Virus record (IMG/VR): IMGVR_UViG_3300025308_000007
Location: 1-45,229 of that record
Strand: one strand, 5' to 3'
DNA from: a virus
DNA: 45,229 nucleotides
The first letter of the stretch is position 1. Every line of letters begins with the position of its first letter. The translations under genes and the position numbers were made by a program. Under the pieces are notes generated by a model that saw nothing but the letters and a program-made list of their open reading frames with translations, searched no databases and had not been told where the DNA came from. Positions 13,652-43,717 of this stretch are shown one piece after another.

Positions 13652-13890
13652 GGTTGGCCTCCAAGCGGTGCGGTCTACAACAACCGACGCCATGGCTGCA
13701 AAACGATGGCGGCGGCTCGACGGGTTTGCAGACCGGGCACCGCTTGCGCGAACCGGCAGGGCTTGCGCCCTCCCGCCGAGCCGCCATAAAGGGGGCGCGA
13801 ACGAAAAAGCCGCAGTACCTGTGCGGTGGCTGCGGCTCTCGCTGCAGCGGTGCTTCGGGCTGCAAAACCCGATCCCTGATGAGCAGGGAT
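13652..13890 (-). ncRNA. C4/CI-like antisense immunity RNA leader, copy 1
   Basis: Read on the minus strand, this 240-nt leader contains in order: hairpin TCCCTG-ctcat-CAGGGA (13889-13873); sense motif GGGTTTTGCAG (13870-13860); an intrinsic terminator (13836-13804); antisense b AAGCGGTGCCCGGTCT (13745-13730); antisense a CTGCAAACCC (13731-13722); target a' TTTTGCAG (13703-13696); target b' AGACCGCACCGCTT (13676-13663); then GGAGG and ATG 13651. Segment b pairs with b' over 14 bp with a 2-nt bulge, and a pairs with both a' and the upstream sense motif. This is the plan of P1/P7 C4 and P4 CI RNA, where a processed leader fragment blocks translation or causes early termination. It shares its plan with 43451-43681 but has different a/b sequences. 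Confidence 0.75.
13804..13836 (-). terminator. Intrinsic terminator inside leader 1
   Basis: On the minus strand GCCGCAG (13836-13830) pairs with CTGCGGC (13815-13809), with further pairing inside the loop, followed by TTTTT (13808-13804). It lies about 55-85 nt after the predicted transcript start, ahead of the antisense segments. Full-length transcription must therefore pass it, which fits an attenuation mechanism. Confidence 0.75.
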
Positions 13891-13896
13891 GCCGCG

Positions 13897-13926
13897 ACTG
13901 TAGACGCGCGAAAGGCGCAGTGTCAA
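13897..13926 (-). promoter_or_regulatory. Sigma70-type promoter of leader 1
   Basis: TTGACA (13926-13921) and TACAGT (13902-13897) are separated by 18 bases. Predicted transcription starts near 13890, exactly at the first hairpin of the leader. The second leader has the same spacing (TTGCCA-18-TACACT). Confidence 0.75.
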
Positions 13927-13944
13927 GCGATGGGGTTTTCATGA

Positions 13945-14517
13945 TCACGCCCCATCGCCCATGCCCGGCAGGGGCTTCTGCTGCAGGATGGGCGCCAGCC
14001 CTTCAGCGGCAGCCGTGTCCATGCCCAGCGCCTCGTCGATGCGCTTGAGGCTCTGCCACATGGCGCGGGCGATGCTGGGGTGCTTCGCATCGCCCAGCTG
14101 GGCCAGCACGCGGTTGCGCTCCTTGATCCACGCCAGCTTGCCGGTGTCAGCACTACCGGCCGAACTGGCGCTGTCGGTGGTCCAGTGTCGGTAAAGCGCC
14201 TCCTCGCACTCTTCCTGGTAGCGCATCATCTTGTCGCGCAGCTCGGGCTTCACCTTGTTCGGTTGCAGCGTGTAAAGCCAGGCCGGGAGCTTGCGCAGGG
14301 GAAGGCAGACCATGGAGCGCAGCTTTCCATCCTCTGCAACCGTCACGATTTCCGTGACGGTTGACCCGAATTTCTCCATCAACTTGATGTGCTGCGGCTG
14401 CCAGGACAGGCCTAAATTGGCCACCACGGTACGCATAACGACATAGGGTTGCCCCTCAAAGTCGGCCAACACCACGGTGTCACCGTGGAACTCAACAGGT
14501 AGTAACTGGGTTCTCAT
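13945..14517 (-). CDS. P22_AR_N-type antirepressor-like protein
   Basis: 190 aa from ATG 14517. The N-terminal 100 residues match the phage antirepressor N-terminal domain: MRTQLLPVEFHGDTVVLADF, then PYVVMRTVVANLGLSWQPQH, and CLPLRKLPAWLYTLQPNKV before a helical YQEECEEALYRHW. The C-terminal domain (about 110-190) is helical and variable, as is usual. Family members include P22 and P1 antirepressors, which inactivate repressors. It lies immediately upstream of leader 1: its stop is 18 bases from the leader's -35, so it may be cotranscribed into the leader or controlled together with it. Confidence 0.82.
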   Translation of the reverse strand: MRTQLLPVEFHGDTVVLADFEGQPYVVMRTVVANLGLSWQPQHIKLMEKFGSTVTEIVTVAEDGKLRSMVCLPLRKLPAWLYTLQPNKVKPELRDKMMRYQEECEEALYRHWTTDSASSAGSADTGKLAWIKERNRVLAQLGDAKHPSIARAMWQSLKRIDEALGMDTAAAEGLAPILQQKPLPGMGDGA

Positions 14518-14535
14518 TTCGTCCTCGTCTCGTCG

Positions 14536-17334
14536 TCAGATCGGCGTCTTGTCAACCGGGCGCGCCGCACTCAGCCCGTACTGCTCCAGCGCCGGCAGGC
14601 TCAGGCCCACCATGTGCGCCACGCGCCTGCCGTTGCAGGTGCGCTCGATGTCGTCCTCGGCCAGCACGTTGGCCGTCTGCAGGGCGCGCTTGAACACCCG
14701 GTCGCTCTTGACCGGCAGCGCGTCCCAGAACTCGCGCAGGCTGTGCTCGCGCGCCATGTGGTCCATCACGTGGCTGGTGCGCACTGCCAGGAAGGGCTCG
14801 CCCTCGGCCGTCTCGTCGAACAGGAACGGGTGCCTGAACGTGCCGCGCGAGATCTCGCTCAGCAGCAGGTCCACGATCCACACCCATGGCTGGCGGTCGC
14901 CCTTGCTCTCGGTGATGTGCGCGTTCATCTGCGCCGTCAGGTCGCGGATGAAGCCGCCCTGGCTCAGGTCGATGTCGGCAAACTCGCACAGCAGCACCCA
15001 GGCCGCGCGCACCGCCGCGTAGTTGGTCAGGATGCGCACCGCGCCGGCGTCGTCCTCCTTGGCCGCGCAGCTGGTCTGCAGCTCGGCGATGCACTTGGCG
15101 TGCAGCTCCTGCACCCGCGCCTTTGGCAGCCCGGCCAGAAACTCCAGCCACTGCCGTACCGGAAACACCGGCAGGTCCTCCGGCATCAGCGGCCCGCGCA
15201 TCGCCTTGCTCAGGTGGTTGCGCACCAGCTTGCCCTGCAGCGTGGCCACCGGCACGTCCTCGCCGGCCAGCAGCACCGGCGCGCAGATCAAGAAGTCCTT
15301 CAGCTCAGCGCCGCGCCGCGTGTGGCTGTACTGGTAGGCCTCCTGCAGGTTGTTCACTGCCTTGTTGATCAGGTCCTGCTTGTTCGCGCTCAGCTCGCCC
15401 CAGCCCACCGGGTGGCTGGTGTAGCTCACGCTCGTCAGGATGCGGAACTCCGTCTGCATGCTCTGGCGGCTGAACACCGTCATGCCGATCGTGCGCTCCA
15501 GCCGCTTGAGCACCGTGTCCTTGCCCACCCCCTTGTCGGCCTGCATCACGAAGTGCGGCCAGAAGCCCAGGAAGGCCTTCAGGTGCGCGCCCAGCGCCCA
15601 CACCAGCATCTGCAGCGCCCCGTTCTCGGCAAACGTGGCCTGGTAGGCCGTCACCACCTCGCGCGCCGAGCTGCGCGGCCCCGAGGGGAACGTCAGCGCG
15701 TTGTACGGGCACTGCTGCGCCGGGTCGGTGAAGTAGCAGTCGGGCCCCTCGTTGACCACCGGCCGCCCGTTGCGCCAGGCCAGCCCCACAAAATTCACCG
15801 CGTCGCGCGCCCCGATGTCGGCCGCGCGCTCCATGATGTTGATCATCCGGCTGAAGTTCTGCGGGCTGAACACCGGCCCCAGCTTCTTCCAGTGCTCCAC
15901 GTTGTGCAGCTGCTCGTCGGACACCACCTTGCGCAGCAGCCGGCTGCCGTAGCGCGGCACCTGCACGCTCACCGCAAAGATCGTGTGCGGGCTCGTGTCC
16001 TTGTCGCCCGTCATGGTGCTGGTGGGGCTGGCAATCGTCACCCGGCTCACCCCCGCCACGCGAAAGCCGCACACATTGCCCAGCGTCAGCTTCTCCCGGG
16101 CGCCGTCCTTGCCATCGTCGTCGTCACCGGGCTTGGGGCTTTCGTACTTCTCCACGTAGCTGGTGAAGTCGGGCCGCACCCTGAAGCGCCAGTACACCTG
16201 GTTGTCATGGAAGGGCAGCCAGATCCGCGGCTTGCCCTTGTGCTCCTTGCCCGGCATGCCGGGGATCAGCCACTGCTCGAGCTTCTGGATCGCGTTGCCC
16301 AACCGCTCGGGCCCGTGCGCCTGCAGGTAGTCGTTCAGGTCGTTGATCGGCTCCTTGTCGTCGTCCAGCCAGTCGTCCATGTCCACCATCAGGGCCGGCA
16401 CATCCAGGCCCATCAGCCCCTCGTGCGCGGCCCAGGCCGCCACCAGCCCGGCGCAATAGCCCGCCTTGGGGCCGTGCTCGATCGGCTTGTCGTTGTCGAA
16501 GGCCAGGATCACCTGCTTGCCGATGAACAACCGCCAGTCCATGCCCGCCACGCTGCCCGTGCCCCGCACCGCCACGGCCGCGGTGTGCGGCAGCGCGCAG
16601 GTGTCCACGCTCAGCGCATTGATCGCGCTCTCCACCACGAACACCCGCTTGGCCGCCGCAAACCGCCGCCAGTCGCTGCACCAGGGCGCGCCCACCTTCT
16701 CGCCCTGGCTCTGCGTCTTCATGCCGCCGTTGGCATCGGCGTCGATGTAGCGCATGTCCACCGCCACCACGTTGCCCGCATCGCTCGTGCGCACGATGCT
16801 GGCCACCGCCAGCCCGCCGTGGTTGATCTCGCCGACGGCAAATTTCGGGTTCACGTAGTCGTTGATCCCCAGCGTGCCGCGGTCGATCGCATGGGTGATC
16901 GCCTTCTCGCTGATCCCCCGCCCCGTCAGGTAGTCCACCAGCGCCGCGCGCTTGGTGGCGTCCTTCAGGTTGGCCGTGCAGTTGTCGGCGATCCACTCCA
17001 CCTTGGTGCGCTCGCGCCGCTCGCCGGGCAGCTTCGGGTCGACCACCGCGATGCGGTACATGTCGCCCAGTGCGCGCACCGCCTCGCGGAAGTCGCAGCC
17101 CTGCACGTGCATGTACAGGTCCACCGGGCCGCCGCCGGTGTCCTGGCTGAAGTCCTTGAAGTAGCTGCGCCCGTCCTTCTTGTAGGTGCTCAGCGAGGGC
17201 ATCTTGTCGGCGTGGTGCGGGCTCTTGAAGTTGCCCCGGTCGCCCGGGCGCTCCAGGCCCAGGCGGATCGCCAGGTCCTCGCAATCCACCCGCCCGTTGA
17301 TTTCGTCGGCGAGTGATGGTCTGTTGGTGCTCAT
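14536..17334 (-). CDS. TOPRIM primase-helicase
   Basis: 932 aa, probably the phage replication protein combining primer synthesis and DNA unwinding. A CHC2-like primase zinc-finger region (residues about 33-80: FKSPHHADKMPSLSTY, then YFKDFSQDTGGGPVDLYMHV) keeps the fold pattern but has lost the zinc cysteines. A TOPRIM domain spans about 228-290, with E235 in VFVVESAINAL and acidic D280/D282 in ILAFDNDKP. A P-loop ATPase domain starts near 590, with Walker A at about 600-607 (DKGVGKDT) in a region resembling virus-type helicases. ATG 17334 begins MSTNRPSLADEINGR. It is the only recognisable replication gene in the genome. Confidence 0.87.
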   Translation of the reverse strand: MSTNRPSLADEINGRVDCEDLAIRLGLERPGDRGNFKSPHHADKMPSLSTYKKDGRSYFKDFSQDTGGGPVDLYMHVQGCDFREAVRALGDMYRIAVVDPKLPGERRERTKVEWIADNCTANLKDATKRAALVDYLTGRGISEKAITHAIDRGTLGINDYVNPKFAVGEINHGGLAVASIVRTSDAGNVVAVDMRYIDADANGGMKTQSQGEKVGAPWCSDWRRFAAAKRVFVVESAINALSVDTCALPHTAAVAVRGTGSVAGMDWRLFIGKQVILAFDNDKPIEHGPKAGYCAGLVAAWAAHEGLMGLDVPALMVDMDDWLDDDKEPINDLNDYLQAHGPERLGNAIQKLEQWLIPGMPGKEHKGKPRIWLPFHDNQVYWRFRVRPDFTSYVEKYESPKPGDDDDGKDGAREKLTLGNVCGFRVAGVSRVTIASPTSTMTGDKDTSPHTIFAVSVQVPRYGSRLLRKVVSDEQLHNVEHWKKLGPVFSPQNFSRMINIMERAADIGARDAVNFVGLAWRNGRPVVNEGPDCYFTDPAQQCPYNALTFPSGPRSSAREVVTAYQATFAENGALQMLVWALGAHLKAFLGFWPHFVMQADKGVGKDTVLKRLERTIGMTVFSRQSMQTEFRILTSVSYTSHPVGWGELSANKQDLINKAVNNLQEAYQYSHTRRGAELKDFLICAPVLLAGEDVPVATLQGKLVRNHLSKAMRGPLMPEDLPVFPVRQWLEFLAGLPKARVQELHAKCIAELQTSCAAKEDDAGAVRILTNYAAVRAAWVLLCEFADIDLSQGGFIRDLTAQMNAHITESKGDRQPWVWIVDLLLSEISRGTFRHPFLFDETAEGEPFLAVRTSHVMDHMAREHSLREFWDALPVKSDRVFKRALQTANVLAEDDIERTCNGRRVAHMVGLSLPALEQYGLSAARPVDKTPI

Positions 17335-17394
17335 GAAGGGGTTGGTGCGGTCAGCGCCGCCTGGTGGCGGTCGGGTTGTTGTTCGGTGCAGCGC

Positions 17395-17679
17395 TCAGAA
17401 CAGCTGCGGAGTGCTGTCGCTCGCGTGGGCCAGCCGCACCAGCTGCTTGGCCTCCACCGCGTCAACGGCCTGCCCCACCACCTTCAGGTAGGCCCGGCTG
17501 TTGTGCAGGCAGGGCGACCGGCGCAGCACCTTCCACGCCGCGTACACCTCGCGGCGCAGCCCCACTGGCACCATGCGCCAGTGGCCGTTGCACATCAGGT
17601 GGCTGCGCAGCACCACGTGCTGGCAGCCCACGGCCCGGCACCGGTAGCGCTGGCCATTCGCGTCCGGCGGCTGCATCAC
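17395..17679 (-). CDS. Small zinc-binding protein
   Basis: 94 aa. The pattern CRAVGCQHVVLRSHLMCNGHWRM resembles small phage proteins with two Cys pairs plus His that probably bind zinc, followed by VPVGLRREVYAAWKVLRR. Function unknown. It ends about 60 bases before the primase-helicase gene and overlaps the upstream gene by 4 bases. Confidence 0.7.
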   Translation of the reverse strand: MMQPPDANGQRYRCRAVGCQHVVLRSHLMCNGHWRMVPVGLRREVYAAWKVLRRSPCLHNSRAYLKVVGQAVDAVEAKQLVRLAHASDSTPQLF

Positions 17680-17996
17680 CGGCCCCCGGCCGCCCGCGCC
17701 GATGCCGGCAGCGACAGCGCCAGCGCCACGTCCGCGCTGCAGCTCAGGCGCCAGCCCTCACCGCAGAACATCGCGTCGCCGCCCTCCTGCATCGCGTCCA
17801 GCACCACATCGGCCACCCAGAACGGCACCGCCAGCGCCACCGCCAGCGCGCCGGTGGTCACATGCGTGCAGCGGTGCTGCCACAGAAGCGCCAGCGCCTT
17901 ACTGCGCAGCGGTGCCACCTCGTAGATCTGCATGCTCTGCTCCATCGCCTGCAGGCAGGCGCTCGTGTCTGTCGGGCGTGGGTCGGTCGGGTTCAT
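17676..17996 (-). CDS. Hypothetical protein with possible helix-turn-helix
   Basis: 106 aa from ATG 17996 (MNPTDPRPTDTSACL). The central part (ALALLWQHRCTHVTTGALAV, then VPFWVADVVLDAMQ) could form a winged helix-turn-helix. The C-terminus is Ala-rich. No family recognised. ATGA overlap with the upstream gene. Confidence 0.6.
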   Translation of the reverse strand: MNPTDPRPTDTSACLQAMEQSMQIYEVAPLRSKALALLWQHRCTHVTTGALAVALAVPFWVADVVLDAMQEGGDAMFCGEGWRLSCSADVALALSLPASARAAGGR

Positions 17997-18409
17997 TGCT
18001 GCGCCCAGCTCGCCACGCAGCCGGCCAGCCTGGCCACCGAGTCGATGTCGCCGTAGTCGGCCTGCAGCTCGGCCATCACCAGCTGCTCGGTGCCGTCGGC
18101 GCTGTCCACGCGCTGCGCCAGGCCCACATGGGCGTGCTTGCGGTCGGTGCTCTGGCCCATCACCGCGGCGCGGCGCACGCCACGGCGCACCAGGTCGCGC
18201 ATCGCGCGGCGGGCCCACAGCGTGCCGCCCAGCCGGTACTCGCGGCCCCGGGCGTTGAACATCACCGTGCCGGCCACCACCAGGTCGGCCAGCTCGTCGT
18301 CCAGCACCGCATCGCCCCAGCGCAGGCCGGCGGTCAGTTCGGTGCGGCCCATCCAGCCGCCATGCTCGGCCAGGCGCTTGGTCAGCGCCGCTGCGCAGGG
18401 GTTGCCCAT
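17993..18409 (-). CDS. Putative winged-helix DNA-binding protein
   Basis: 138 aa from ATG 18409, which overlaps the upstream stop as TGATG. The N-terminal ALTKRLAEHGGWMGRTELTA, followed by DDELADLVVAGTVMF and REYRLGGTLWARRAMRDLVR, is the helix-helix-wing pattern of small winged-helix proteins that decide chain by helix pairs. The C-terminal region varies. Regulator or structural DNA-binder; target unknown. Confidence 0.62.
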   Translation of the reverse strand: MGNPCAAALTKRLAEHGGWMGRTELTAGLRWGDAVLDDELADLVVAGTVMFNARGREYRLGGTLWARRAMRDLVRRGVRRAAVMGQSTDRKHAHVGLAQRVDSADGTEQLVMAELQADYGDIDSVARLAGCVASWAQQ

Positions 18410-18564
18410 CACGCGGCCCTCCGGTCCAGGCAGATCAGCGCCAGCGACAGCGCCGGCCCGTACATCGCCTCGGCCAGCAGCTCGGCGGCCAGCCGGCTGC
18501 AGTGGTGCAGCTCCACCTGGTGGCGCCGGCCGGCCGCGTCGCGGTGCGTCACGCGCCAGCTCAT
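18409..18564 (-). CDS. Very small hypothetical protein
   Basis: 51 aa from ATG 18564 (MSWRVTHRDAAGRRH), overlapping its neighbours by 4 bases upstream (ATGA) and 1 base downstream. A basic beta-like N-terminus precedes a helix LAAELLAEAMYGPALSLALI. Nothing beyond the coupled position supports a role. Confidence 0.5.
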   Translation of the reverse strand: MSWRVTHRDAAGRRHQVELHHCSRLAAELLAEAMYGPALSLALICLDRRAA

Positions 18565-18983
18565 GGCCGCACCGCCTGCATTGCCGCCTGCGCCGGTGCC
18601 GCCACCGGCTCGGGCAGGCCCTTCAGCAGCATCTGGCCAGCGCCCTCGGTGGGCAGATTGGCCCGCGTGCACGCGCCCTTCAGCCGCCACGAATGCGCCA
18701 TGTGCTCCAGCCGGTGGCCGAAGTCGCGGCGCCCGAAGGCCCGGTTCAGCACCTCGTGCACCTCGGGCCAGTTGAGGTTGGCGTCCATGGCCAGCACGTC
18801 GAAGGCCGCGCGCAGCAGCGCTGAATCCAGCCGCCGCAGCTCCGTCAGGTCGAAGGGGAAGCGCCGGCCGTTGTACAGCCCCAGCAGCAGCCGGGCGCAC
18901 ACCCCCGACTGGCCGGTGTCGTTCTGCGCCACGTTCCACAGCGCGATCAGCGCCTCCAGCCGGGTGCGGTCGGTGCTCAGCAT
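18561..18983 (-). CDS. Conserved phage protein (DUF7673-like)
   Basis: 140 aa from ATG 18983 (MLSTDRTRLEALIAL). The pattern GVCARLLLGLYNGRRFPFDL, then TELRRLDSALLRAAFDVLAM, followed by WPEVHEVLNRAFG, is typical of a small phage/plasmid protein family of unknown function. The family name is from memory. It overlaps the end of the recombinase gene by 7 bases. Confidence 0.65.
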   Translation of the reverse strand: MLSTDRTRLEALIALWNVAQNDTGQSGVCARLLLGLYNGRRFPFDLTELRRLDSALLRAAFDVLAMDANLNWPEVHEVLNRAFGRRDFGHRLEHMAHSWRLKGACTRANLPTEGAGQMLLKGLPEPVAAPAQAAMQAVRP

Positions 18984-21384: not shown

Positions 21385-21444
21385 GTCGATCTCAATTCAG
21401 TGGGTTTAATGCCGCGCGTAGTCACGGAAAAGCGCAGTTTGTGC

Positions 21445-23706: not shown

Positions 23707-26700
23707 TCAGCAGCTCGGGCAGATGTACACGCCACCGGTGTCGGCATACGTCACGGTGTAGGTCACCGCGTTGTCGGCAATGTCGGTGGTGGCCGCCTGG
23801 CCGGTGATGTTCACGCCGAACTGCGCGCCCACGGTGGCGTTGTCGGCGGGCTTGCCGGTGCCGCTCACGCTGGCCCAGGTGGCCCGGGTGCCGGCAACCT
23901 CGGCAAATTTGTTCAGCAGCGCCTGGCGCGTGGTGTACACGTCGGCAAACTTGGTGCGGAAGGTGCTGCCGGTGATCGCGGTGTCGGTACCGGTGTCGTT
24001 CCAGGCCGGCGACAGCCCGCTCAGGTAGGAGCTAAGGGCCGCCACCGCGTTGTCGTAGGCCGTCTTCTCGGTGGTGATGGTGTAGGCCGTGGCCTGCGCG
24101 TCGATACCCGATTGATCGCCCGATATGGCGGCCCAGTCCAGGATCACCTGCCCCTTCTCGCCCTTGCTCAGCACGTTGTCCGAGCTGATGTTGCCGATGG
24201 CGGCATTGGCGGTGTCCGCGTCGGCCTGGGCATCGGCCGCAGCGCTGGCGGCAAGGCCGGCGAACACACCTGCGGCGGTGGCGTCGGTCTGGGCGTTGTC
24301 GGCCAGGGTCTTGGCGATGCCTGCGATGGCATCGAGCACCGCTTGCCGGTACAGGTACACGTCCGAGAACTTGGTGCGGAAGGTGGTGCCCGTGATCGGG
24401 GTGTCCTGCGTCGCGTCGTTCCACGGCGGGGTCAGCGATGTCAGGTACGCGCCCAGCGCCCCCTTGGCGGCGATGTAGTTCGTCAACTCCGAGCCCACCC
24501 CGTAGGCGATGGCCTGGTCAGTGATGAAGGAGTACTCGTTGTCGATGGCGGTCCAGTCGAGGATCACCGCCCCCTTCTCGCCCTTGGCCAGCACGTTGTC
24601 GCTCACGATGTTGGCGATGGCCGCGTTGGCAGTGTCGGCGTCGGTCTGGGCATCGCCGGCGGCCGCGATGGCCGCGTCTGCAGCGGTCTTGGCGTCGACC
24701 ACCTCGGTCACTTCTTCAAAGCTGAAGTCCTGCACCTCCCAGTAGCCGGCCGCAAGCGAGTAGTTGTCCAGGAAGTCGGGTCGCACAAACTGCACACCCG
24801 CCTGCCAGTCGGCAGCCTCCCAGATGTAGCTGTACTCGCCCCACTGGTCGGTGCCGCCGAACTGAGTGTTGTGGGCGTCCCGGCTTTGCCCGCTAGGCTT
24901 GTACGGGCTGCGCCCGCCGTTGACAGGGCCCGTGGTGCCGGCGTTGTCGGTGAACTGCTGCAGGCTGAAGTACAGGATGCCAACCGTCGTCGCCGATGGC
25001 CGTGCCCAGAAGCGAACGCGGTATTTCTTGGTGCGGTCGATGGCGGTGTAGTTGCCCTGGTTCGGGTAGCCGCCGGCAGACAAGCGCAGCGCGGCGCTGC
25101 CCACCTTGCCGTCGCCCAGGGCAACGATCGTCTGCCCGTTCAGGTTCCACGACTCGAACGGCAGGCCCAGCGATTTGCCCACGGTCGCGTAGCTTGCGGG
25201 CTTGCCCGCGCCGGTCACCGCCGACCACACGTTCACGTTGGCAGCGGGTATGCCGGCCACCGTGCCCGTCACGTCACCCGCAAAGGCCACGCTCGACGCG
25301 GGTTGGTACGGGTCTTCCGCCGTCAGCGACGGCTTCACCCAGGCGCTGAACAGCAGGCCCGCCGCGTCGATGTCGGGGTCCACCACGCGGTAGGCCCGCA
25401 CCGCAAAGGTGATGTGCTGCGTCGGGTCGAGCCCCAGCGCGACGAAGGCGCGCTTGTTCGCCGGCATCGCCAGCACCGTCTCCTGCGCCGGGCTGGCGCC
25501 CACCGTGTAGGCCCCACCGGTGGCCGACACCCGCACCAGCACCTGAAAGCCGTCGATGTCGGGCTCCGACCCCGCCCACGCCCACTCGAACGACACGTCG
25601 GCGCTGGCGTTCACGTTGATGGTGTGGTCCACCGCGCTGCCGTCGGTGGCGATGGTGGGCGCCGGCACCGCGGTGGCAATGCGGTCGTTGCGGCCGTTGA
25701 AGTTGACCAGCGCGGCCTCGCCCAGCGCCAGTACGTTGGTCACCACGAAGGTGGTGCGCCAGTCGCTCACCGCGCCCAGGCCATTGCGCAGCCGCGCCCG
25801 GATGAAGTACAGCCGATTGTTCTGCGGCCCCTGCAGGTCGCAGCGGGTGGCCAGCGCATTGATCTCGGGCACGCGCGCCCACTCGGTCGACTCGGCCGGC
25901 CGGTATTCCACCTGCACCGCGCCGTTGCTGATCACCAGCGTATCGGTCACGGCCGTCCACGACACGCGCACCCGGCTCAGCACCGTGCCGTCGCTGTCGC
26001 GCTGCGCAATCGCATCACTGCTCACCGCCGCCAGCCCGGCCACCGGCGCCACCACCCACGGGTCTTGCGCCGCGGCGGTGGGCGATGCCAGCGGCGCCGG
26101 CGCATCCGCCTCGTCGTAGTAGCTGGCGTCGTCCTGCTCCATCGACAGCATCACCGCACCACCGGGCTTGAATTCCTTCTTCACCAGGCGGAACACCGCC
26201 GCATCCAGGTTCAGCCACGGCACCGTCAGCGTCACGCGCTGGCCCACCTTCAGCCGCACCGCGCGCAGCTTGGCAGGGAACACCAGCTGCTGCCCGCGCG
26301 AGCGCTCCACCTGGATGCGCGCTAGGTTCGTGGCCCGCCAGTCGGCCGCGGTGAAGGGCATGTTCAGGCTGCCCCACATGGCAACGCCGCCGTCTGCGCT
26401 CACGAAGGCGGTGTTCTGGTAGGGCGTGTAGTCGGTCAGCTGGTCGAAGCGATCGGGGTCGAAGTACTTGCCACGCAGGCCGTTGAACACCTCCAGCCCC
26501 GCCGCGCCGGCCAGCAGCTCGATGCTGCCCGCGTTGTCGGCCACCGTCAGCGCCATCACCGGCGCGGTGTAGGCCCCGGCCTGCAGGCGCCAGGCGCCGG
26601 CATCGGTGGCAAAGCCGGCCATGCTCTGGCACAGCGCGTCCAGCGTCTGGTCGGTGTCGGCGTCGGTCAGCACGGCGCCGTCGCAGCGGTAGCGCGCGGC

Positions 26701-28185: not shown

Positions 28186-28187
28186 CG

Positions 28188-36204: not shown

Positions 36205-36235
36205 GGCAGCTTCGCGGGCTTCAAGAATCCCGGGG

Positions 36236-38905
36236 TCAGGCCGCGCGGGCCACGCGCGCTGTGGCGCTGTACAGCACCAGGCTCGTGTTCGCGTTCTTGC
36301 GCTGGGTGGGCGTGTGGCACACGATGAACTGCTCGCCGTAGTTTTCCTTGGCGCCGGTGAACAGGCCGTTGCTGTCGCGGGCCTCTTCCAGGTTGTTCAT
36401 CGAGAACGGCCGCATCATGCGGAACCGCGTGTTGCCCCGCTCGCCCACCACCACGCGCACGTCGCCGGTGTTCAGGCCCGGCGCGCGGGTGTTGAAGGCC
36501 GGGATGCCCTTGACCATGCCCACGCTGCCGTCGGCGTTCAGGCCCGAGCCGGGGCGCGAGCCGTTGGCCGTGAAGCTGGTGGCCTGGCCCAGCGCGTTGT
36601 CCACCGCGCCGCTCATCAGCAGCAGGTTCGAGGTGTAGTAGCGGTCGTTCTCGATCACCACCTTGCGCGCGCCGATGTAGTTCAGCACCCGGTCGTACAC
36701 CGCGGCGATGGTGTCGGGCGATGCGCCGACGTCCAGGTTCACCTTCGACACGTTCTGCGTGTAGGTGTAGCCCACCGTCAGCACCCAGGCCGAGGTGGGC
36801 GTCTGCAGCACGCCCGCCTCGTTGACGAAGCGGATCTCGCCCATGTTGTAGTCCATCACCCAGTACAGGCCGGCCGCCAGGGTGACGCCGGTCACGTACT
36901 CGATGCGGGCCACCGCGTTGAGCGTCACGGTGATGGCCGCGGAAGTGGCGCCCTGCTGCACGCCCTTCAGGTCGTACACCTTGCGCGGGCGCACCACCGG
37001 GAACTGCGTCAGCACGAAAATCTTGTTCGTGCCGTTCACCTGGGCGGTCAGCGTGTCGGTGATGGTGGCCGACAGCGCCTCGTCGCTCGAGCGCAGCACC
37101 TCGTTCTGGATGATCGCGTCGGTGTCCTCGCCCACGATGCGGATCACGTTGCGCGTGTTCTCGGCCAGCGGGTCGAAGTCGATCGGCGCGCCGGCCAGCA
37201 GATAGCGCATCTCGTTGTTGAGCTTGAACGCCAGCTTCTGCGGGATCGGGCGGGCTTCCTCGTAGGTCTGGATCACGCCGGCACGCTGGATCGGCTGGCC
37301 TTCATAGGTGCGCACCGCGCTCGTGCCGGCGCCGGTGGTGTCGCGGTAGCTGTAGGGGATCTGCACCACGGGTGCAAAGTCCACCGTGCCCACGTTGACG
37401 AAGCCCAGGCCGGTCAGCTGGTACAGAGACTCGCGCAGCACCGTGCGTTCGAAGATGGCCGGCACCGCGATGTCGCTGCTGGTGCCGCTGCCGGCGGCCA
37501 GCAGCTTGTGCTCGGCCGACAGCTGCGCGCCGTGCAGTGCATCGAACTGGGCCAGCGCCTTCTCGGCGAACGCCTTGTTCATCACCAGCAGCTGCCCGCC
37601 GGTGCGCTCGAAGCGCTGGGCATCGGCCATGCCGTCGAAGCCCAGGCGGCGGTCCACCTGCTGCTGCAGGGCCTTCACCTGGTTGCCCGACTCCACGGTG
37701 ATGTGCACGCTGCCCGAGGCCGGGCGATAGCCCAGCGTGGCCAGCTGCTGCGCGGCGCTGATCTTGGCGTAGTTCGACAGCGCGAACTCGGCAAGGCGCT
37801 TGATCTGGTCGTCCGACAGGTCCTTGGTCACCAGCGGCTGCAGCTCGGCCAGGATCACGGTCTTGGCCTCGTCGGCGATCGCGGTGTTCGCGCCCACGGT
37901 GTCGGACAGCAGCTTCACTTTGGCGCCCAGCGTGGCGGCCTCTTCAGCCAAGTTGCGGGTCTGGGCCGCCATGGCATCGGCAACGGCCTTGCGCACCGCG
38001 GCAGGGTCGACATCACTGCCCACCTGCAGGGTGATCACCGGCGTCATGGTGGCGCCACCACCGGCGGCCGCCAGCGTCTTCAGCTGAGCATGCAGAGACT
38101 GGCCCGCAGAGGCAAAGGTCTCGACCAGCGCCAGGCACTTGGCCTCGTCGGCGGCGGCCGCCTCGAGCTGCTTGAGCGCGGCGTCGAGGATGGGTTGGAT
38201 CTGGGTTTCGGTCAGGCCCAGCGAGAGCAGTTTGTCGCGCAGGGCTTTGAGGTGCTTGTTCATGGTGTCGGACTCCGTCAGGGTCTTGAGCAATGAGGGA
38301 TGGATGGCCAGCTTGGCCAGGTCGTCGTCGGCATCGCCTGCGCCGTCGTGGCTCAGGGTCACCGGGTCCAGGTGCTTGATCACAGGCCGGGTGGTCAGCC
38401 CGGCGCCCAGCAGCACGCAGCCGTGGGCATCGCCTTTCTCGTTGTCTCGCCAGTCCTCGTGGTACTCCGCAGATAGGTACGAGAACCCGCGCGACTTGAC
38501 GGCATCGATCCCGAAGTCCGTCCACTCCACCAGGGCGCGCAGCCGGCCGTTGGCCACGGCCAACTTGAGCACCCGGCAGGCTGCCCCGTCGGTGGGCTTG
38601 TGCGCCACGTCGAAGAACACGTCCTGTCCCAGAACGCGCCCGTCGAAGTTGCTCACCATCTGCGCCAGCATGGCCGGCGTGATGTCGAACTGCCCGTAGC
38701 GGGGGTCGGTGAAAGTGCCCGTCCGGGTCACCGTCACCCATGAAGTCTTGGCCCCATCGGCCAGCGAGATCGGCAGCGAGAGAAACCTCACCCGACCAGG
38801 TGCCGGCTTGTCCCCTTCGGCCAAGAAGATGTGGCGCGCTACGTTGCCGCAGCGCGCCACGAACTCGGCACGCCGAGGAGACAAGGACTTGGCAATGGCT
38901 TGCAT
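36236..38905 (-). CDS. Protease-scaffold-major capsid protein fusion
   Basis: 889 aa from ATG 38905. Residues about 40-185 form a Mu gpI-type head maturation protease (RYGQFDITPAMLAQMVSNFD, then FFDVAHKPTDGAACRVLKLA and SRGFSYLSAEYHEDW; D99/H102 and S142/S145 are candidate active residues). Residues about 195-400 are helical and Ala/Lys/Glu-rich, as in scaffolds. The remainder is capsid-like, including AVPAIFERTVLRESLYQLTG and FNTRAPGLNTGDVRVVVGER. An internal ATG at 38263 (residue 215), with GGAG 9 nt upstream, could make a separate scaffold-capsid protein of 675 aa. One-gene fusions of this kind occur in some Mu-like and related phages. Confidence 0.85.
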   Translation of the reverse strand: MQAIAKSLSPRRAEFVARCGNVARHIFLAEGDKPAPGRVRFLSLPISLADGAKTSWVTVTRTGTFTDPRYGQFDITPAMLAQMVSNFDGRVLGQDVFFDVAHKPTDGAACRVLKLAVANGRLRALVEWTDFGIDAVKSRGFSYLSAEYHEDWRDNEKGDAHGCVLLGAGLTTRPVIKHLDPVTLSHDGAGDADDDLAKLAIHPSLLKTLTESDTMNKHLKALRDKLLSLGLTETQIQPILDAALKQLEAAAADEAKCLALVETFASAGQSLHAQLKTLAAAGGGATMTPVITLQVGSDVDPAAVRKAVADAMAAQTRNLAEEAATLGAKVKLLSDTVGANTAIADEAKTVILAELQPLVTKDLSDDQIKRLAEFALSNYAKISAAQQLATLGYRPASGSVHITVESGNQVKALQQQVDRRLGFDGMADAQRFERTGGQLLVMNKAFAEKALAQFDALHGAQLSAEHKLLAAGSGTSSDIAVPAIFERTVLRESLYQLTGLGFVNVGTVDFAPVVQIPYSYRDTTGAGTSAVRTYEGQPIQRAGVIQTYEEARPIPQKLAFKLNNEMRYLLAGAPIDFDPLAENTRNVIRIVGEDTDAIIQNEVLRSSDEALSATITDTLTAQVNGTNKIFVLTQFPVVRPRKVYDLKGVQQGATSAAITVTLNAVARIEYVTGVTLAAGLYWVMDYNMGEIRFVNEAGVLQTPTSAWVLTVGYTYTQNVSKVNLDVGASPDTIAAVYDRVLNYIGARKVVIENDRYYTSNLLLMSGAVDNALGQATSFTANGSRPGSGLNADGSVGMVKGIPAFNTRAPGLNTGDVRVVVGERGNTRFRMMRPFSMNNLEEARDSNGLFTGAKENYGEQFIVCHTPTQRKNANTSLVLYSATARVARAA

Positions 38906-38962
38906 GATGTTGGCATCATGGGCCGCACATCAGTGACGTTTGCAGGGGTGCTGCGTGGCTCG

Positions 38963-38991
38963 CATTGGCGGGCATGCTCATGCCGCCAATG
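38963..38991. terminator. Long hairpin over the end of the lytic-enzyme gene
   Basis: CATTGGCGG (38963-38971) and CCGCCAATG (38983-38991) pair perfectly, and the inner CATG/CATG extends the stem to 13 bp with one bulged base. It overlaps the last codons and stop (38978) of the lytic transglycosylase gene. It may set the boundary between lysis and capsid transcripts. Confidence 0.6.
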
Positions 38992-39454
38992 CGATGGATT
39001 CGAGTGCGCTGCGATAGGCCTGCGCCCATGTCTCCATGTGGGGCTTGCCGGGGCGCCACACCCGCACGTACAAGTACCACGCGCCGGCCTCGTCGCCCAG
39101 CTCGGGAAGGCGCTTCGGGTCTGTGAACAGCAGCAGCCGCGCAGCACCTGCGGCCAGCACATCGTCGGTTTCGATCTGGCGCCAGAGCGCGTCCGGTGTC
39201 GGCTCGCAGTTGCGCAGCTTGCACAGGTGGTGCATCCAGTAGCGGCTGGCCTGGTGCTTCAGCACGCCAGCACAGCCACCGCCGCGCTCGAACTGCCAGA
39301 ACCCTCGCGCCGGGCCCTTGGCGCCAGGCGCACCGTCAACCACCTGGAAGCGATGTGTGAAGCGGCTTTCCTGCCAGCCGATTGCGTGCAGCATCACGCG
39401 CGCCTCGGCGCTGTCCATCTGGGCAGGTAGCAGGGCGAGGGCGGCGTCGATCAT
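38978..39454 (-). CDS. Lytic transglycosylase-like endolysin
   Basis: 158 aa from ATG 39454 (MIDAALALLPAQMDS). MLHAIGWQESRFTHRFQVVD has the helix with catalytic Glu (W-Q-E-S) of soluble lytic transglycosylase-type enzymes, followed by GPARGFWQFERGGGCAGVLK. It would cleave peptidoglycan glycan strands at lysis or entry. No signal peptide, so it would need a holin; the candidate is at 33739-34143. It lies just before the capsid gene. Confidence 0.8.
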   Translation of the reverse strand: MIDAALALLPAQMDSAEARVMLHAIGWQESRFTHRFQVVDGAPGAKGPARGFWQFERGGGCAGVLKHQASRYWMHHLCKLRNCEPTPDALWRQIETDDVLAAGAARLLLFTDPKRLPELGDEAGAWYLYVRVWRPGKPHMETWAQAYRSALESIALAA

Positions 39455-39479
39455 CGTGTGCCCAGGCGGGATGCGCGAA

Positions 39480-39755
39480 TCAGCCGGCCGGCGTGAAGTC
39501 CACGTAGAAGCGATCGCCCGCCTTGAACTTGTCGAACAGCGCCGGATTGGCGATGTTGATGGTCAGCTGCGCACGGGGAGAGTAGCGCGCGTAGGTGTTG
39601 TCCTCGTCCAGGCCCTCGCCTTCGTACCGCGGGGCGCAGACAGCGTGCATGGTCAGTTGCTCCGACGACACCTTGGTGCGCTCGGCGTCGCTGAAGTGCT
39701 TATGCACGAAACCGACTTGGAGCTTGGCGCGCATCGTGGTCTTGGTGGTGTTCAT
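39480..39755 (-). CDS. Small conserved phage protein
   Basis: 91 aa from ATG 39755 (MNTTKTTMRAKLQVG), with AAAGG about 6 nt upstream. The pattern AKLQVGFVHKHFSDAE, then ANPALFDKFKAGDRFYVDFT, is typical of a small beta-barrel phage protein that occurs in many phages and has no known function. It lies between the fibre-like gene and the lytic enzyme. Confidence 0.72.
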   Translation of the reverse strand: MNTTKTTMRAKLQVGFVHKHFSDAERTKVSSEQLTMHAVCAPRYEGEGLDEDNTYARYSPRAQLTINIANPALFDKFKAGDRFYVDFTPAG

Positions 39756-39878
39756 GGTTGCCTTTCTGGCAGTTGTTGCTGGGTGGGCGGGTTGGCGGTT
39801 CAGCCACTTAGCCTGGTCGGTGCCCGTGGGCTCCGGTACGGACCTTCCCGAAACTATGTGCACCGGCAGGGGATGGGA

Positions 39879-41363
39879 TCAGAACAAGCCGCGATAGCGC
39901 AGCCAATCGCCGACCGTGCCGGCACCGCCAAGTTGCCCAGAAGAAACCGCAGCAGCCACAGCATCGGCAAACGTGGTGAACTCGGCCACCGGCCAAGTCA
40001 CGGTATCGGCGTAAGTCGTGCCTTCCACCTTGTGCGCCATCGTCACCATGTCCTCGCAATAGTCGATGGCATCTTGCAGGTGCGTCAGCATTGCGGCCAG
40101 TTCGATCCCCGATCCGAAACTGCGCACCGGCACTTCATTGGTGTTTTGGTGCCTGAACAGCGGCTCTGCGTTTGCATCGCTGACCCCGCGCAGCAGGCGC
40201 ACACCTTCCGCACGCAATGCCGCCGCGCCCGCAGCGGTGCAGTCGCCCTGCACCCACGGGTGGTAGTGGCTCCCGTTCAGCGAACCGCGACCAGCGAGCA
40301 GCCACTTCGTGTCGCGGTATTCGTCCAGATAGGTTGCCAGTCCGGCAGATGTGATGGTGGTGTTGTTGACGTTGTGCGAGGCGACCTCATGCCCCGCTGC
40401 GGCCAGCGCATCGATCTGCGCCAAGGTCATCTTCCCGGCGCCGCCAAGTGACAGCGAATTGATGCCAAACGTGCCACGCATGCCCCGCGCCTTCAGGATG
40501 TCGGCATAGGTCTGCATGGAATCGTCGTCGTCATCAATCGACCAGACCAGGAACGGAGGCACCCGGTCAGGCAGATACAACCCGTCGATGTAGGCATCCA
40601 CCGTCTGCCCGGCGTTGACGTACACCCGGATGCGGTATTGCGTCACATCGTCGGTTTCGGTCAGGGTGTCGCTGACGGCAGAAGTGCCATCGTGGAAGCC
40701 GTAGGTGCGCCCCTCGTTGCATTTGTCCAAACTGTGCGGGAACTTGCGCCCACGGAAAAACCGAGCCAGCCCAGATGTGCCCGCGTACAGTTCAAACTGC
40801 CCAATCTTCGACGGATCGCTGAAAGCTGCCCGAATCGCAAAGCGGCGCTTGACTGACTTCCAGGCAGGGAAGTTGATGGCATCGGTTGCGGATGTCACAT
40901 CGACATAGCGGGCCGCTCCTGCTGCGTTGACGATGGCGAGTTTGAGCGCAGTCGTACCCAGCTGAGTTGAGGTCTCAGCGGTCATCGTCACTGTGATGTT
41001 GGCGTCCTGCGCCGATGCCGTCAGCCCGCTGGTTTCAGCGAACGCACGGACCACTGAATGCCGCTGCAGTCCAGCCCCGACCAGTGGCGCGGCTGGCGCT
41101 GCCCCCCAGGGCTGCAACGATGCAATGCCATCCCCTGACACCAGGGATTTGACTGAACCTGCCAGAGCGGCCGGGATAAGCCCGAACCGATCACCGGCAA
41201 CGATCAACTCGGGGTCACTCCCAGCGTCTCTGATGGCCGACACGTTCAAGACTGCCGGCGCTTGAGCGTTGTCATCGACAAAAGCGCCATCTCCAGGAAG
41301 GACCAACTTCCCGCCAATGGGCTTCACTGACGATCCGCTGTTTTGCACCCAGGTCTTGCCCAT
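39879..41363 (-). CDS. Tail fibre/spike-like protein with NodB polysaccharide deacetylase domain
   Basis: 494 aa from ATG 41363 with AGGGAG 5 nt upstream. The N-terminal 110 residues resemble fibre attachment or oligomerisation repeats (KLVLPGDGAFVDDNAQAPAV). Residues about 120-265 look like a beta jelly roll. A carbohydrate-esterase-4 (NodB) domain occupies about 268-494, with SIDDDDDS (D277-D281) as the metal-binding first motif, GHEVASHNVNN (H325, H330) as the second and HYHPWVQGD as a possible third. It would remove acetyl groups from a surface polysaccharide (capsule, O-antigen or similar), acting as a receptor-modifying spike. It stands away from the tail operon, next to the serine recombinase. 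Confidence 0.78.
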   Translation of the reverse strand: MGKTWVQNSGSSVKPIGGKLVLPGDGAFVDDNAQAPAVLNVSAIRDAGSDPELIVAGDRFGLIPAALAGSVKSLVSGDGIASLQPWGAAPAAPLVGAGLQRHSVVRAFAETSGLTASAQDANITVTMTAETSTQLGTTALKLAIVNAAGAARYVDVTSATDAINFPAWKSVKRRFAIRAAFSDPSKIGQFELYAGTSGLARFFRGRKFPHSLDKCNEGRTYGFHDGTSAVSDTLTETDDVTQYRIRVYVNAGQTVDAYIDGLYLPDRVPPFLVWSIDDDDDSMQTYADILKARGMRGTFGINSLSLGGAGKMTLAQIDALAAAGHEVASHNVNNTTITSAGLATYLDEYRDTKWLLAGRGSLNGSHYHPWVQGDCTAAGAAALRAEGVRLLRGVSDANAEPLFRHQNTNEVPVRSFGSGIELAAMLTHLQDAIDYCEDMVTMAHKVEGTTYADTVTWPVAEFTTFADAVAAAVSSGQLGGAGTVGDWLRYRGLF

Positions 41364-41445
41364 GCCAACTCCCTGATCGCGGGCAAACGCCCACACGGTC
41401 AGTAGTTGGCACGCCTCTTCAGGACATTTGCACCCGGGGCCGCAG

Positions 41446-43071
41446 TCACGCGGCCAATCGCCTCATTGATCGTCCTTTGAACGGGTGTGCGAGAAGCACT
41501 CGGCCGGTTCGCAGCAAGCCCACCACGGGGAGCCAATTCTTGGTGCTATGAACCATGGCACCTTGCTCGCGTATGAGGCACTCAGGGTGGTAATCCACCC
41601 GGAGCTCTGCCAGGTCGACCACGATCTCCTTTACGATCGAAGCGACGAAGGCCCGAAGCGCCTTCGGGCTCTCGCAGTCGGCCACCATCTTCCGCATCAC
41701 CGCCACGGCTTCATCGGCTGACACGCTGATCTGGCCCACGATCGGCTCGGGCTCATCCTCGATCTGCACCAGGGCCAGCTCGAGCCGCCGCACCTGGTCG
41801 TTCAGCTCGCGCAGGCGTGGGCCCATCTCGCTGATTCCGGGTGTGTCCTTGCCATGCGTCTCCAGCGCGTCGTACAGCTTGGCACGCCGCCCCTCCACGC
41901 CGCGCAGCTCCAGCACCAGCGCCGATCTGCGCCTGGCGCGATCCTTCACCCAGTCGGCGGCCGCGGTGTCCAGCTGGGCGATCACGCCTCGCAGGTTCTC
42001 GGGCGTGAACACGTGCCGCATCAGCTCGTCCATCATCCAGCGGTCGAAGGCCTCGGCCGGCAGGCGCTTGAACGTGCACTTCTTGCCCTGCAGGTCGCCC
42101 CGGCAGGCGTAGTAGCTGTAGACCTTGCCGGCGCGCCCGGTGCCGGTGGCGATCACCAGCGACGATCCGCACAGCGCGCAGCGCATCAGCCCGGCAAAGG
42201 CGTGCTCGCTGTTGGCAGGAGCGCGGCCCTCGGTGGGCATGCGCTCGGCCAGGCCGCGCTGCACCTGGTCAAACTGCTCAGGCGTCACCAGCTCGTCGTG
42301 GCCCTTCACTCGCACCCACTCGCCCTTCGGCCGCCGGCGCTCGCGCTTGCGGTCGAACCGGTTGAAGATCACCTCGCCCATGTACACCTCGCTCTTCAGG
42401 ATGTGAAGGATCGCGCCCTTGGTCCAGGGCTTGCCGCGCAGGGTCAGCCCCTGCCCGTTCAGATTCGTCGCGATCGCGTAGGCGCCCACCTGGCGCGCGC
42501 TGGCCGCGAACATTGATTGCACCACCGGAGACTCTTCGGGATGCGGCTGCAGCCGCTTGTGCCGGCCATCGGCCGCGGGCACGGTCTGGTAGCCGAACGG
42601 TACCCGCCCGCCCATGAAATAGCCCTCTGAGGCCGCCGAGATCATCGACCGCCTTGTGTCCTTCGACACTTGCCGAGAATAGGCCTCGTCGAAGATCTGC
42701 TGCACGCTGTCGGTAAGCCAGCCCTCGTCGGTCCACAGATCGATGCCCTGGCTGGCGTACACCAGGCGCGTGCCCACCCCGCGCAGCGACTCCTTGTGGA
42801 CGATGGCATCGCGCTGGTTGCGGGCAAACCGGCTCGAGCTCCACACCACCAGGTAGTCGGGCTCGGCAACCCGGCAATGCTCGATCGCAGCCCGAAAGCC
42901 GGGCCGCGCATCGGTGGTGCCGGAGATCCCGTCGTCCCTGTAGACGCCCAGCACCGCCGCATCCAGTTCGAGCACCTTGCGCCTGCAGGATTCGATCTGG
43001 CTGTCCACCGACTGCCCTTCCTCCGCCTGGTTGTCGCTGCTCACGCGTGCGTAGATCACCGCCCGCTTCAT
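41446..43071 (-). CDS. Large serine recombinase
   Basis: 541 aa from ATG 43071 (MKRAVIYARVSSDNQ); an ATG at 43083 adds four residues. The N-terminal resolvase domain (1-150) has the nucleophile region YARVSS (S11/S12), RDDGISGTTDARPGF and VWSSSRFARNQRD. A recombinase domain follows (VPFGYQTVPAADGRHKRLQP, then IATNLNGQGLTLRGKPWTKG). A zinc ribbon is CALCGSSLVI ... CRGDLQGKKC, and a C-terminal coiled coil contains LRELNDQVRRLELALVQIED. Such enzymes integrate phages or invert segments. With the tyrosine integrase also present, it may be a second integration system, an inversion enzyme for the neighbouring fibre gene, or an acquired element. Confidence 0.9.
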   Translation of the reverse strand: MKRAVIYARVSSDNQAEEGQSVDSQIESCRRKVLELDAAVLGVYRDDGISGTTDARPGFRAAIEHCRVAEPDYLVVWSSSRFARNQRDAIVHKESLRGVGTRLVYASQGIDLWTDEGWLTDSVQQIFDEAYSRQVSKDTRRSMISAASEGYFMGGRVPFGYQTVPAADGRHKRLQPHPEESPVVQSMFAASARQVGAYAIATNLNGQGLTLRGKPWTKGAILHILKSEVYMGEVIFNRFDRKRERRRPKGEWVRVKGHDELVTPEQFDQVQRGLAERMPTEGRAPANSEHAFAGLMRCALCGSSLVIATGTGRAGKVYSYYACRGDLQGKKCTFKRLPAEAFDRWMMDELMRHVFTPENLRGVIAQLDTAAADWVKDRARRRSALVLELRGVEGRRAKLYDALETHGKDTPGISEMGPRLRELNDQVRRLELALVQIEDEPEPIVGQISVSADEAVAVMRKMVADCESPKALRAFVASIVKEIVVDLAELRVDYHPECLIREQGAMVHSTKNWLPVVGLLRTGRVLLAHPFKGRSMRRLAA

Positions 43072-43159
43072 GCGCACCACCATAGCGCCGGCGCGGCGCC
43101 GTCTCCAATGACGGCCGGGCCGCTGGTCATCCATGCCGGGCGGCCCGGCCGTTGGTGGG

Positions 43160-43450
43160 TCAGCTGTTCGCCGCGTCGGTGCCCAGGGCGGCCAGCACCG
43201 GAAAGCCCAGTTTCATCGCCGTCTGCACCAGGCCGTCGTTCGCGCACTGCAGCCGGCCGTGCAGGCCCTCCAGCAGCACGCTGAAGCCCTGCAGGTCGTA
43301 GTCGACCCGCGCCACGCTCATGAGAAGCGTGGTGGCCCGCATGCTGCCGATCACGTCGAGCATCAGTTGCTCGAAATCGGTTTCCATCACCACCTGATCC
43401 TCGGTGGTATCCAGGTCGGGGTGTATCGGGGGTGGGGGATTGGTTGCCAT
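43160..43450 (-). CDS. Small helical protein controlled by structured leader 2
   Basis: 96 aa from ATG 43450 with GAGG 5 nt upstream. Proline-rich start (MATNPPPPIHPDLDT), then helical FEQLMLDVIGSMRATTLLMS and RLQCANDGLVQTAMKLGFPV. Function unknown; size and position match the product at 13373-13651 after leader 1, though direct similarity is weak. It is the first gene after the second C4/CI-like leader, whose b' segment overlaps its Shine-Dalgarno sequence, so it is the likely direct target of that RNA. The serine recombinase starts 88 bases further on. Confidence 0.68.
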   Translation of the reverse strand: MATNPPPPIHPDLDTTEDQVVMETDFEQLMLDVIGSMRATTLLMSVARVDYDLQGFSVLLEGLHGRLQCANDGLVQTAMKLGFPVLAALGTDAANS

Positions 43451-43681
43451 GTTGGCCTCGCAGGTGCAGTTGAACAACTGCCACCCACGACGCCAATCGG
43501 GGCGGCAGCCCAAGATGGGTTGGCGTACCGGGCACCCGCGAACGGAACCGGCGAGCCTTGCGGCTCCCCACCCGGGCTGCCATTGAAATGGGCCGGGCGC
43601 GAAAAAGCCGCAATCCTGTCGGTGCGGCTATGCGCCGCGAGTGCAACGGGACGCCAATCCCGATCCCTGATGAGCAGGGAC
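43451..43681 (-). ncRNA. C4/CI-like antisense immunity RNA leader, copy 2
   Basis: On the minus strand: hairpin TCCCTG-ctcat-CAGGGA (43680-43664); sense motif GGGATTGGCGT (43661-43651); terminator (43629-43602); antisense b TTCGCGGGTGC (43542-43532); antisense a GTACGCCAACCC (43528-43517); target a' GATTGGCGTC (43498-43489); target b' GCACCTGCGAG (43467-43457), which overlaps the GAGG ribosome site; then ATG 43450. Segment b pairs with b' over 11 bp including two G-U pairs. The order of parts and the 22-nt block around the first hairpin match leader 1, while a and b differ entirely, so the two RNAs should not cross-regulate. The architecture is that of P1/P7 C4 and P4 CI. Confidence 0.75.
43602..43629 (-). 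terminator. Intrinsic terminator inside leader 2
   Basis: On the minus strand AGCCGCA pairs with TGCGGCT (stem arms 43629-43623 and 43612-43606), followed by a T-run (43606-43602). It has the same place relative to the first hairpin as the terminator in leader 1. Confidence 0.72.
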
Positions 43682-43687
43682 ACCCGC

Positions 43688-43717
43688 AGTGTAGGTGATT
43701 GAAAAGCGCAGTGGCAA
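43688..43717 (-). promoter_or_regulatory. Sigma70-type promoter of leader 2
   Basis: TTGCCA (43717-43712) and TACACT (43693-43688) with an 18-base spacer. Predicted start near 43681, directly at the first hairpin. It overlaps a possible rightward promoter (TTGAAA 43699-43704, CATGAT 43722-43727) for the plus-strand gene at 43749, so the two may compete. Confidence 0.7.

Follow-up and report, generated by a model that had tools for sequence, protein, structure and literature searches.

Two C4 leaders in a temperate phage

The window, meaning the whole 45,229-nt stretch of viral DNA analysed here, is a circular contig with a 127-nt end repeat and with nearly all of its coding on the minus strand. 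By gene content it is a temperate siphovirus-like phage, with a primase, head and packaging genes, and tyrosine and serine recombinases; its regulators include P22_AR_N and Bro-N antirepressor-domain proteins together with CII-like and Arc-like proteins, and its host probably belongs to the Burkholderiales. A gene encoding 1346 amino acids (27747-23707) contains direct repeats with a 420-nt period at 23915-24663 (119 nt at 82% and 71 nt at 79%), corresponding to a repeated domain near the C-terminus of its product. The two matched minus-strand leaders reported in an earlier note on this DNA do exist, and in both the C4 RNA scores above the Rfam gathering score. The features of the first are as follows.

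13926-13651, minus: leader 1, a complete C4 antisense-RNA leader
13897..13926, minus: promoter-like site, -35 TTGACA, 18-nt spacer containing CACTGCGCCTTTC, -10 TACAGT
13846..13889, minus: upstream target (RF03163, 44.5 bits, E 3.9e-8), with a 5' hairpin (13873-13889), a1 TTTTGCAG (13860-13867) and b1 GCACCGCT (13846-13853)
13804..13837, minus: isrK-like intrinsic terminator between a1/b1 and C4 (RF01394, 37.6 bits, E 1e-4)
13705..13791, minus: C4 antisense RNA, C4-1 (RF01695, 61.0 bits, E 1.7e-9), with loops b' CAAGCGGTGC (13737-13746) and a' CTGCAAACCC (13722-13731)
13658..13703, minus: downstream target, with a2 TTTTGCAG (13696-13703) and b2 GCACCGCTTG (13662-13671) running into the Shine-Dalgarno sequence GGAGG (13658-13662)
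13373..13651, minus: ORF92, the first ORF of leader 1, its stop overlapping the next start (ATGA)
12924..13376, minus: Lar-like restriction-alleviation domain protein (PF14354, E 1.4e-6), coupled to ORF92
13945..14517, minus: P22_AR_N antirepressor-domain protein (PF10547, E 4.8e-43)

By gene spacing, an accessory operon of tightly packed genes begins at the Lar-like gene. The P22_AR_N gene is immediately upstream of leader 1, not downstream of C4-1. An inverted repeat, GATGGGG...CCCCATC (13929-13956), spans the stop codon of this gene just upstream of the leader 1 -35 hexamer and may be terminator-like or an operator. The second leader and its surroundings comprise the following.

43717-43450, minus: leader 2, a complete C4 antisense-RNA leader
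43688..43717, minus: promoter-like site, TTGCCA, 18-nt spacer containing CACTGCGCTTTTC, TACACT
43637..43680, minus: upstream target (RF03163, 45.8 bits, E 1.6e-8), with a 5' hairpin (43664-43680), a1 ATTGGCGT (43651-43658) and b1 GCACTCGC (43637-43644)
43602..43629, minus: isrK-like intrinsic terminator (RF01394, 42.3 bits, E 6e-6)
43498..43587, minus: C4 antisense RNA, C4-2 (RF01695, 62.4 bits, E 7.8e-10), with loops b' GCGGGTGC (43532-43539) and a' ACGCCAACCC (43517-43526)
43456..43497, minus: downstream target, with a2 ATTGGCGT (43490-43497) and b2/Shine-Dalgarno GCACCTGCGAGG (43456-43467)
43160..43450, minus: ORF96, the sole leader 2 ORF before the hairpin below, from a family of C4-headed small ORFs
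43111..43152, minus: 13-bp perfect G+C-rich inverted repeat directly 3' of ORF96, terminator-like but without a T run (fold z -2.75, reached in 0 of 200 shuffles)
43770..44261, plus: divergent ORF in the leader 2 insertion (phrog_11546, E 3e-18), with an uncertain start at 43749 or 43770

A homologue of the divergent ORF adjoins the C4 of the related phage G001, and the ORF is possibly a lysogenic-conversion gene.

The whole window was scanned against all Rfam families, the gathering scores being 45 for C4 (RF01695), 46.7 for c4-a1b1 (RF03163) and 50 for isrK (RF01394). Both C4 elements exceed theirs (61.0 and 62.4 bits), and the scan found no third C4 anywhere in the 45,229 nt. The c4-a1b1 matches reached 44.5 bits in leader 1 and 45.8 bits in leader 2 against 46.7 (E 4e-8 and 2e-8), while the isrK matches (37.6 and 42.3 bits) fall below 50 and are claimed for the terminator-like part only. 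Hence, the RNA family of both leaders is one already known, the phage-P1-type C4 switch. Membership of the class would also entail processing of the RNA from a leader transcript by RNase P and silencing in trans.

The elements follow the same order in both leaders at near-identical spacing: promoter-like hexamers 18 nt apart, a common 5' hairpin (TCCCTGCTCATCAGGGA), a1, b1, an isrK-like terminator with a T run, and C4, followed by a2, by b2 leading into the Shine-Dalgarno sequence and by a small ORF 47-53 nt after C4. Promoters and terminators were called by match to consensus; the promoter-spacer block of leader 1 is conserved in leaders of other phages. The earlier note was also right that a shared backbone carries diverged pairing segments, as an 80-nt block is 76% identical (73% over 229 nt by BLAST) and TTTTGCAG in the one leader stands against ATTGGCGT in the other, each twice in its own leader. 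The C4 folds are more stable than shuffled sequences (z -4.1 for C4-1 and -2.6 for C4-2), and 12 related leaders show compensatory changes at 11 of 28 consensus C4 pairs. The three-stem fold is thus backed by covariation, and the a' and b' loops are complementary to the upstream and downstream Shine-Dalgarno targets of their own leader. Leader 1 had no BLASTN match among GenBank phages, and the exact 21-nt a1-hairpin pattern was present in only one of the viral contigs searched.

Pairing addresses and predicted specificity

The C4 of each leader has a 7-nt address, TTTGCAG in leader 1 and TTGGCGT in leader 2, which recurs unchanged in a1 and a2 of that leader and is absent from those of the other, so that predicted pairing favours self. 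Leader 1 also contains ATGGCGTC, which has six of the seven letters of address 2. Duplex energies with the own and the other C4 for the four targets were -52.2 and -37.3, -45.7 and -30.8, -48.3 and -37.5, and -40.1 and -33.1 kcal/mol, values that leave structure and kinetics out. The second pair is the downstream target of leader 1 with C4-1 and C4-2, and the fourth that of leader 2 with C4-2 and C4-1. The predicted self-preference is therefore ∼7-15 kcal/mol, with cross-pairing still sizeable (-31 to -38 kcal/mol).

The self-matching is general among C4 leaders. Among the matches listed, the C4 a' 7-mer is matched exactly by the leader's own a1 in 88 of 93 leaders (shuffle mean 11.6, maximum 19) and by its own a2 in 80 of 93 (shuffle mean 10.4, maximum 19), leaders 1 and 2 matching at both positions; likewise among the matches listed, the own C4 pairs better than the mean of the others in 90 of 94 leaders. 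At least 22 different addresses occur among the 93 C4 leaders collected, and in sister leaders that precede the same downstream ORF the C4, a1 and a2 all switch address together, from TTTGACAG to TTTGGAAG between G003 and G036, from TTAGCAG to TTCGCAG between G093b and G134b, and from TTGGCGT to TTAGCGT between G027a and G027b. Such joint switching is what heteroimmune variants like P1 and P7 should show, and these sister pairs provide natural triple-compensation pairs for specificity. Since C4 addresses can be read from sequence, immunity groups become predictable; for C4-2, for example, duplex energies predict an effect on the G137 leader as strong as that on leader 2.

Because the a' addresses of the two window C4 RNAs differ and each matches its own targets only, the phage is expected to have two immunity specificities that are largely independent, and the two switches would be orthogonal in the cell. 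That one or both leaders have decayed or cross-react, leaving a single immunity specificity in practice, would fit the strong cross duplex energies and the a1b1 scores just below the Rfam gathering score, but we regard it as distinctly unlikely, given that in both leaders every one of the four target elements pairs exactly or with G-U tolerance, that promoters and ORFs are intact and that the stems covary. Moreover, the a' loop gives specificity in P1 and P7, whose C4 RNAs differ by ∼4 nt in the specificity region and are nevertheless heteroimmune (PMC5320573).

Insertion sites, transcript extent and origin of the leaders

The closest relatives of the window phage (L003/L085 and L033/L084; terL protein 92-93% identical) are collinear with the window and continuous through both gene arms, and none of them carries a C4 leader. 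The inserted cassette that holds each leader measures ∼1.2 kb. At site 1, window positions 13121-14540 (the P22_AR_N gene, leader 1 and ORF92) correspond to 86-120 bp in L084/L085, and at site 2, positions 43152-44297 (leader 2, ORF96 and the divergent ORF) correspond to 20-68 bp in L033/L003. Among other related phages, G046 has C4 at site 1 only, after the primase, and G059 at site 2 only, between the 44279 gene and the recombinase, whereas two copies were found in 0 of 50 scanned records related by terL or primase. Cassettes of this kind are found at other boundaries in G002, G003, G036, G049 and G050, and in G001 C4 directly precedes a homologue of the Bro-N gene of the window. Boundaries used in related phages include the one just before the gene at the small-terminase position and the one between MuF-like and integrase genes. 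By these comparisons each leader behaves as an independent insertion cassette, in the window at two gene boundaries.

In G001, a Paucibacter prophage (L135, 908-1594), the Bro-N homologue (57% identity) is the first ORF after the C4 leader; the Bro-N gene of the window, unlike that of G001, has no C4 leader.

Since the closest relatives have both arms without leaders, the arms exist independently of them, and we find no support for the proposal of the earlier note, given there as an inference, that each leader heads one half of the lytic program. Nor does leader 2 appear to head an arm running from recombinase to capsid, as its single ORF, ORF96, is followed by the 13-bp perfect hairpin (43111-43152) that separates the leader from the recombinase gene. 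Just before that gene is TTGGAG-18-TATGGT, with a counterpart TTGGCG-18-TAAGGT in L003; this weak match, recognized by eye, may be a promoter belonging to the recombinase gene itself. Beyond leader 1, from 13651 to ∼8325, successive genes lie <25 nt apart, and no promoter- or terminator-like site was found in window 6700-13660. In the absence of a downstream terminator a long transcript is possible, and the overlap of ORF92 with the Lar-like start, together with the compact operon to ∼8325, makes C4-1 control of the accessory genes plausible. Thus, leader 1 may govern the tightly packed accessory operon. Control of the packaging genes by C4-1 would have to cross the gaps of ∼340 and ∼470 nt that precede them. 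Many-kb transcripts, by which C4-1 would gate accessory and packaging genes and C4-2 would gate recombination, lysis and capsid genes, draw on this packing and on the orientation of both leaders into long same-strand gene runs. Such control is nonetheless very unlikely in view of the leaderless arms of close relatives, the hairpin after ORF96, the two gaps and the presence of C4 cassettes at other boundaries in related phages.

A terminator after the small ORF was considered as a cassette-wide rule and rejected; it is present for leader 2 of the window and absent in most relatives.

The earlier note had further suggested duplication followed by a change of specificity. In a tree of 95 leaders, leader 2 (WIN_2) groups with G137a/b (98/86) and leader 1 (WIN_1) with G046, G141, G163, G108a and G122b (94/83), and each has higher BLAST scores to leaders of other phages than to the other window leader. 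The two are thus not each other's nearest kin, recent duplication is unsupported and independent acquisition is the favoured reading of these relationships. Duplication inside this phage lineage with subsequent address change would account for the 73% identity over 229 nt and the same 5' hairpin, and forcing WIN_1 and WIN_2 together, at a cost of 27.8 log-likelihood units, was not rejected by the AU test (p 0.125). It is nevertheless unlikely on the branching of the best tree and the BLAST scores, on the occurrence of a leader at site 1 without site 2 in G046 and the reverse in G059, and on the lack of detectable BLASTP relationship between ORF92 and ORF96. Another phage, G137, does show duplication with address change: its two leaders are within-phage sisters with different addresses (99/95).

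The block CACTGCGCYTTTC is located in the -35/-10 spacer of both leaders (13910-13922 and 43701-43713), and a one-mismatch copy lies just ahead of the Bro-N antirepressor gene (21427-21439), all three on the minus strand. It precedes the C4 leaders of G046, G059, G001, G002, G049 and G050 and is also found elsewhere in related phages. With up to two mismatches there are 7 matches in the window compared with 3.2 expected, and 5 of 100 shuffles reach 7. It may act as a common operator through which both leaders are co-regulated at the DNA level.

Downstream proteins, proposed mode of action and recurrence of multiple leaders

In the usual account of C4 immunity there is one switch per phage, ahead of an antirepressor. 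Across the leaders examined here, the first ORF after C4 is one for an antirepressor-domain protein in some and for a small protein in the others. Both window leaders lack an antirepressor gene directly downstream, the genes after the small ORFs being the Lar-like gene and the serine recombinase gene. At least five related phages have an ORF96 family member directly after C4 (E 1e-9 to 5e-6), and the kin of ORF92 are remote (22-34% identity in an alignment with ORFs of G046, G141 and G148). Neither protein matched Pfam or PHROG. The predicted structures consist of long helices joined by a turn, with pLDDT 82 for ORF96 and 68 for the helical hairpin of ORF92. BLASTP detected no similarity between the two and a profile comparison gave a weak match (35.7% probability), so a common origin is only suggested. 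When 30 C4-headed small ORFs were compared with Pfam, PHROGs and NCBIfam, nearly all were without assignment; one is a DUF6124 member and two have partial similarity to antirepressor profiles. C4 cassettes often precede small proteins without an assigned role, and an antirepressor-like or Icd-like role for ORF92 and ORF96 is a guess from their position.

In each leader, we propose, the promoter starts a transcript that has a1/b1 at its 5' end, then the terminator and C4, and finally a2/b2 covering the small ORF's ribosome-binding site; read-through transcripts would yield the C4 RNA. Pairing of C4 with a1/b1 of new transcripts would favour early termination, and pairing with a2/b2 would block translation of the small ORF, probably with Rho-dependent termination. 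The cassette would thereby be kept silent in the lysogen and in a superinfecting phage of the same address. The leaders were inserted on two separate cassettes, each at a gene boundary of its own. Leader 2 probably governs ORF96 alone, whereas leader 1 would govern ORF92 and, possibly, the Lar-like gene coupled to it and the rest of the accessory operon. Precedents for this mechanism are P1/P7 C4 and its processing (PMC5320573), and IsrK and P4 (PMC4825925). The anatomy, the RNA family, the self-matched addresses and the insertion in cassettes are seen in the sequence itself; termination, translation block, orthogonality in the cell and transcript extent are inferred. Taken jointly, the best explanation, and one that we consider probable, is a temperate phage with two autoregulatory C4 leaders of largely independent specificities, carried on separate cassettes and not heading lytic halves.

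The leaders resemble the P1/P7 C4 of the immI operon (RF01695) in having a three-stem RNA above the Rfam cut-off that is co-linear with a downstream small ORF, and a'/b' loops complementary to their own upstream and Shine-Dalgarno-proximal targets, the a' address setting specificity. Unlike P1 and P7, the window carries in one genome two C4 copies whose addresses differ, neither of them directly followed by an antirepressor gene, and these copies are dispersed over a 45-kb siphovirus-like genome and not confined to one immI locus. The IsrK/orf45/AnrP locus of Salmonella prophage Gifsy-1 (RF01394) shares the succession of promoter, short terminated RNA, C4-like RNA (STnc1160 in Gifsy-1) and small ORF, but the isrK scores of the window are 42 and 38 bits against a cut-off of 50 and there is no anrP homologue downstream. 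The likeness to the CI immunity RNA of phage P4, with its seqA/seqC targets, is one of logic only, in that a processed leader RNA ends transcription by pairing upstream and downstream of itself (PMC4825925). The Group 1 sRNAs of Acinetobacter baumannii likewise consist of many C4 RNAs in one genome that differ from one another mainly in the a' loop (21 C4-like RNAs in strain AB5075, reported in 2016; PMC5320573), although they were described genome-wide and not as self-matched paired leaders in one phage.

A degenerate C4 pattern was found in at least ∼80 viral contigs and C4 was confirmed in at least 77, in a sample that was not dereplicated. Among the matches listed, 11 of the 77 confirmed contigs have two or more C4 (G093, G099, G103, G108, G112, G117, G122, G134, G137, G148 and G160); the second copy in G112 is cut by the contig end, G117 has two within 0.5 kb, the second being unusual, and G160 is a 99-kb contig. 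For contigs of ≥30 kb in the same non-dereplicated sample, ∼10 of 45 that bear C4 have at least two leaders among the matches listed. The C4 switch can be seen as a movable cassette, and a sizeable minority of the phage contigs that bear C4 have more than one copy. Among the matches listed, 9 of the 10 usable phages with several leaders, window included, have addresses that differ; as random pairs would differ in ∼89% of cases, this equals chance, and no selection for differing addresses within a phage is claimed.

The view in the earlier note that such two-channel RNA immunity is not known to be described is not supported, as paired leaders recur in other phages and the Acinetobacter precedent exists. 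Self-matched, differently addressed leader pairs carried as cassettes in single phages were not found described in a literature search short of subscription papers. Two differently addressed C4 copies in one phage, heading small helical proteins, are apparently new, and phages may stack RNA immunities. A more far-reaching reading, that two orthogonal RNA channels gate small helical lytic or antirepressor-like effectors and that mobile modules of C4 and small ORF are collected at gene boundaries, is offered tentatively, as we judge it to have somewhat less than an even chance. If it is true, each new address would widen the range of superinfecting phages that are excluded.

Two related phages, G093 (L331/L332) and G134 (L342/L343), have leaders ∼36 kb apart, and both addresses have changed between them; in leader b, C4 precedes a small ORF, after which comes an antirepressor-like protein. 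G148 (L347, 214-10237) has three C4 leaders inside 14 kb; their addresses are all different, and each heads a related small ORF (62, 87 and 76 amino acids).
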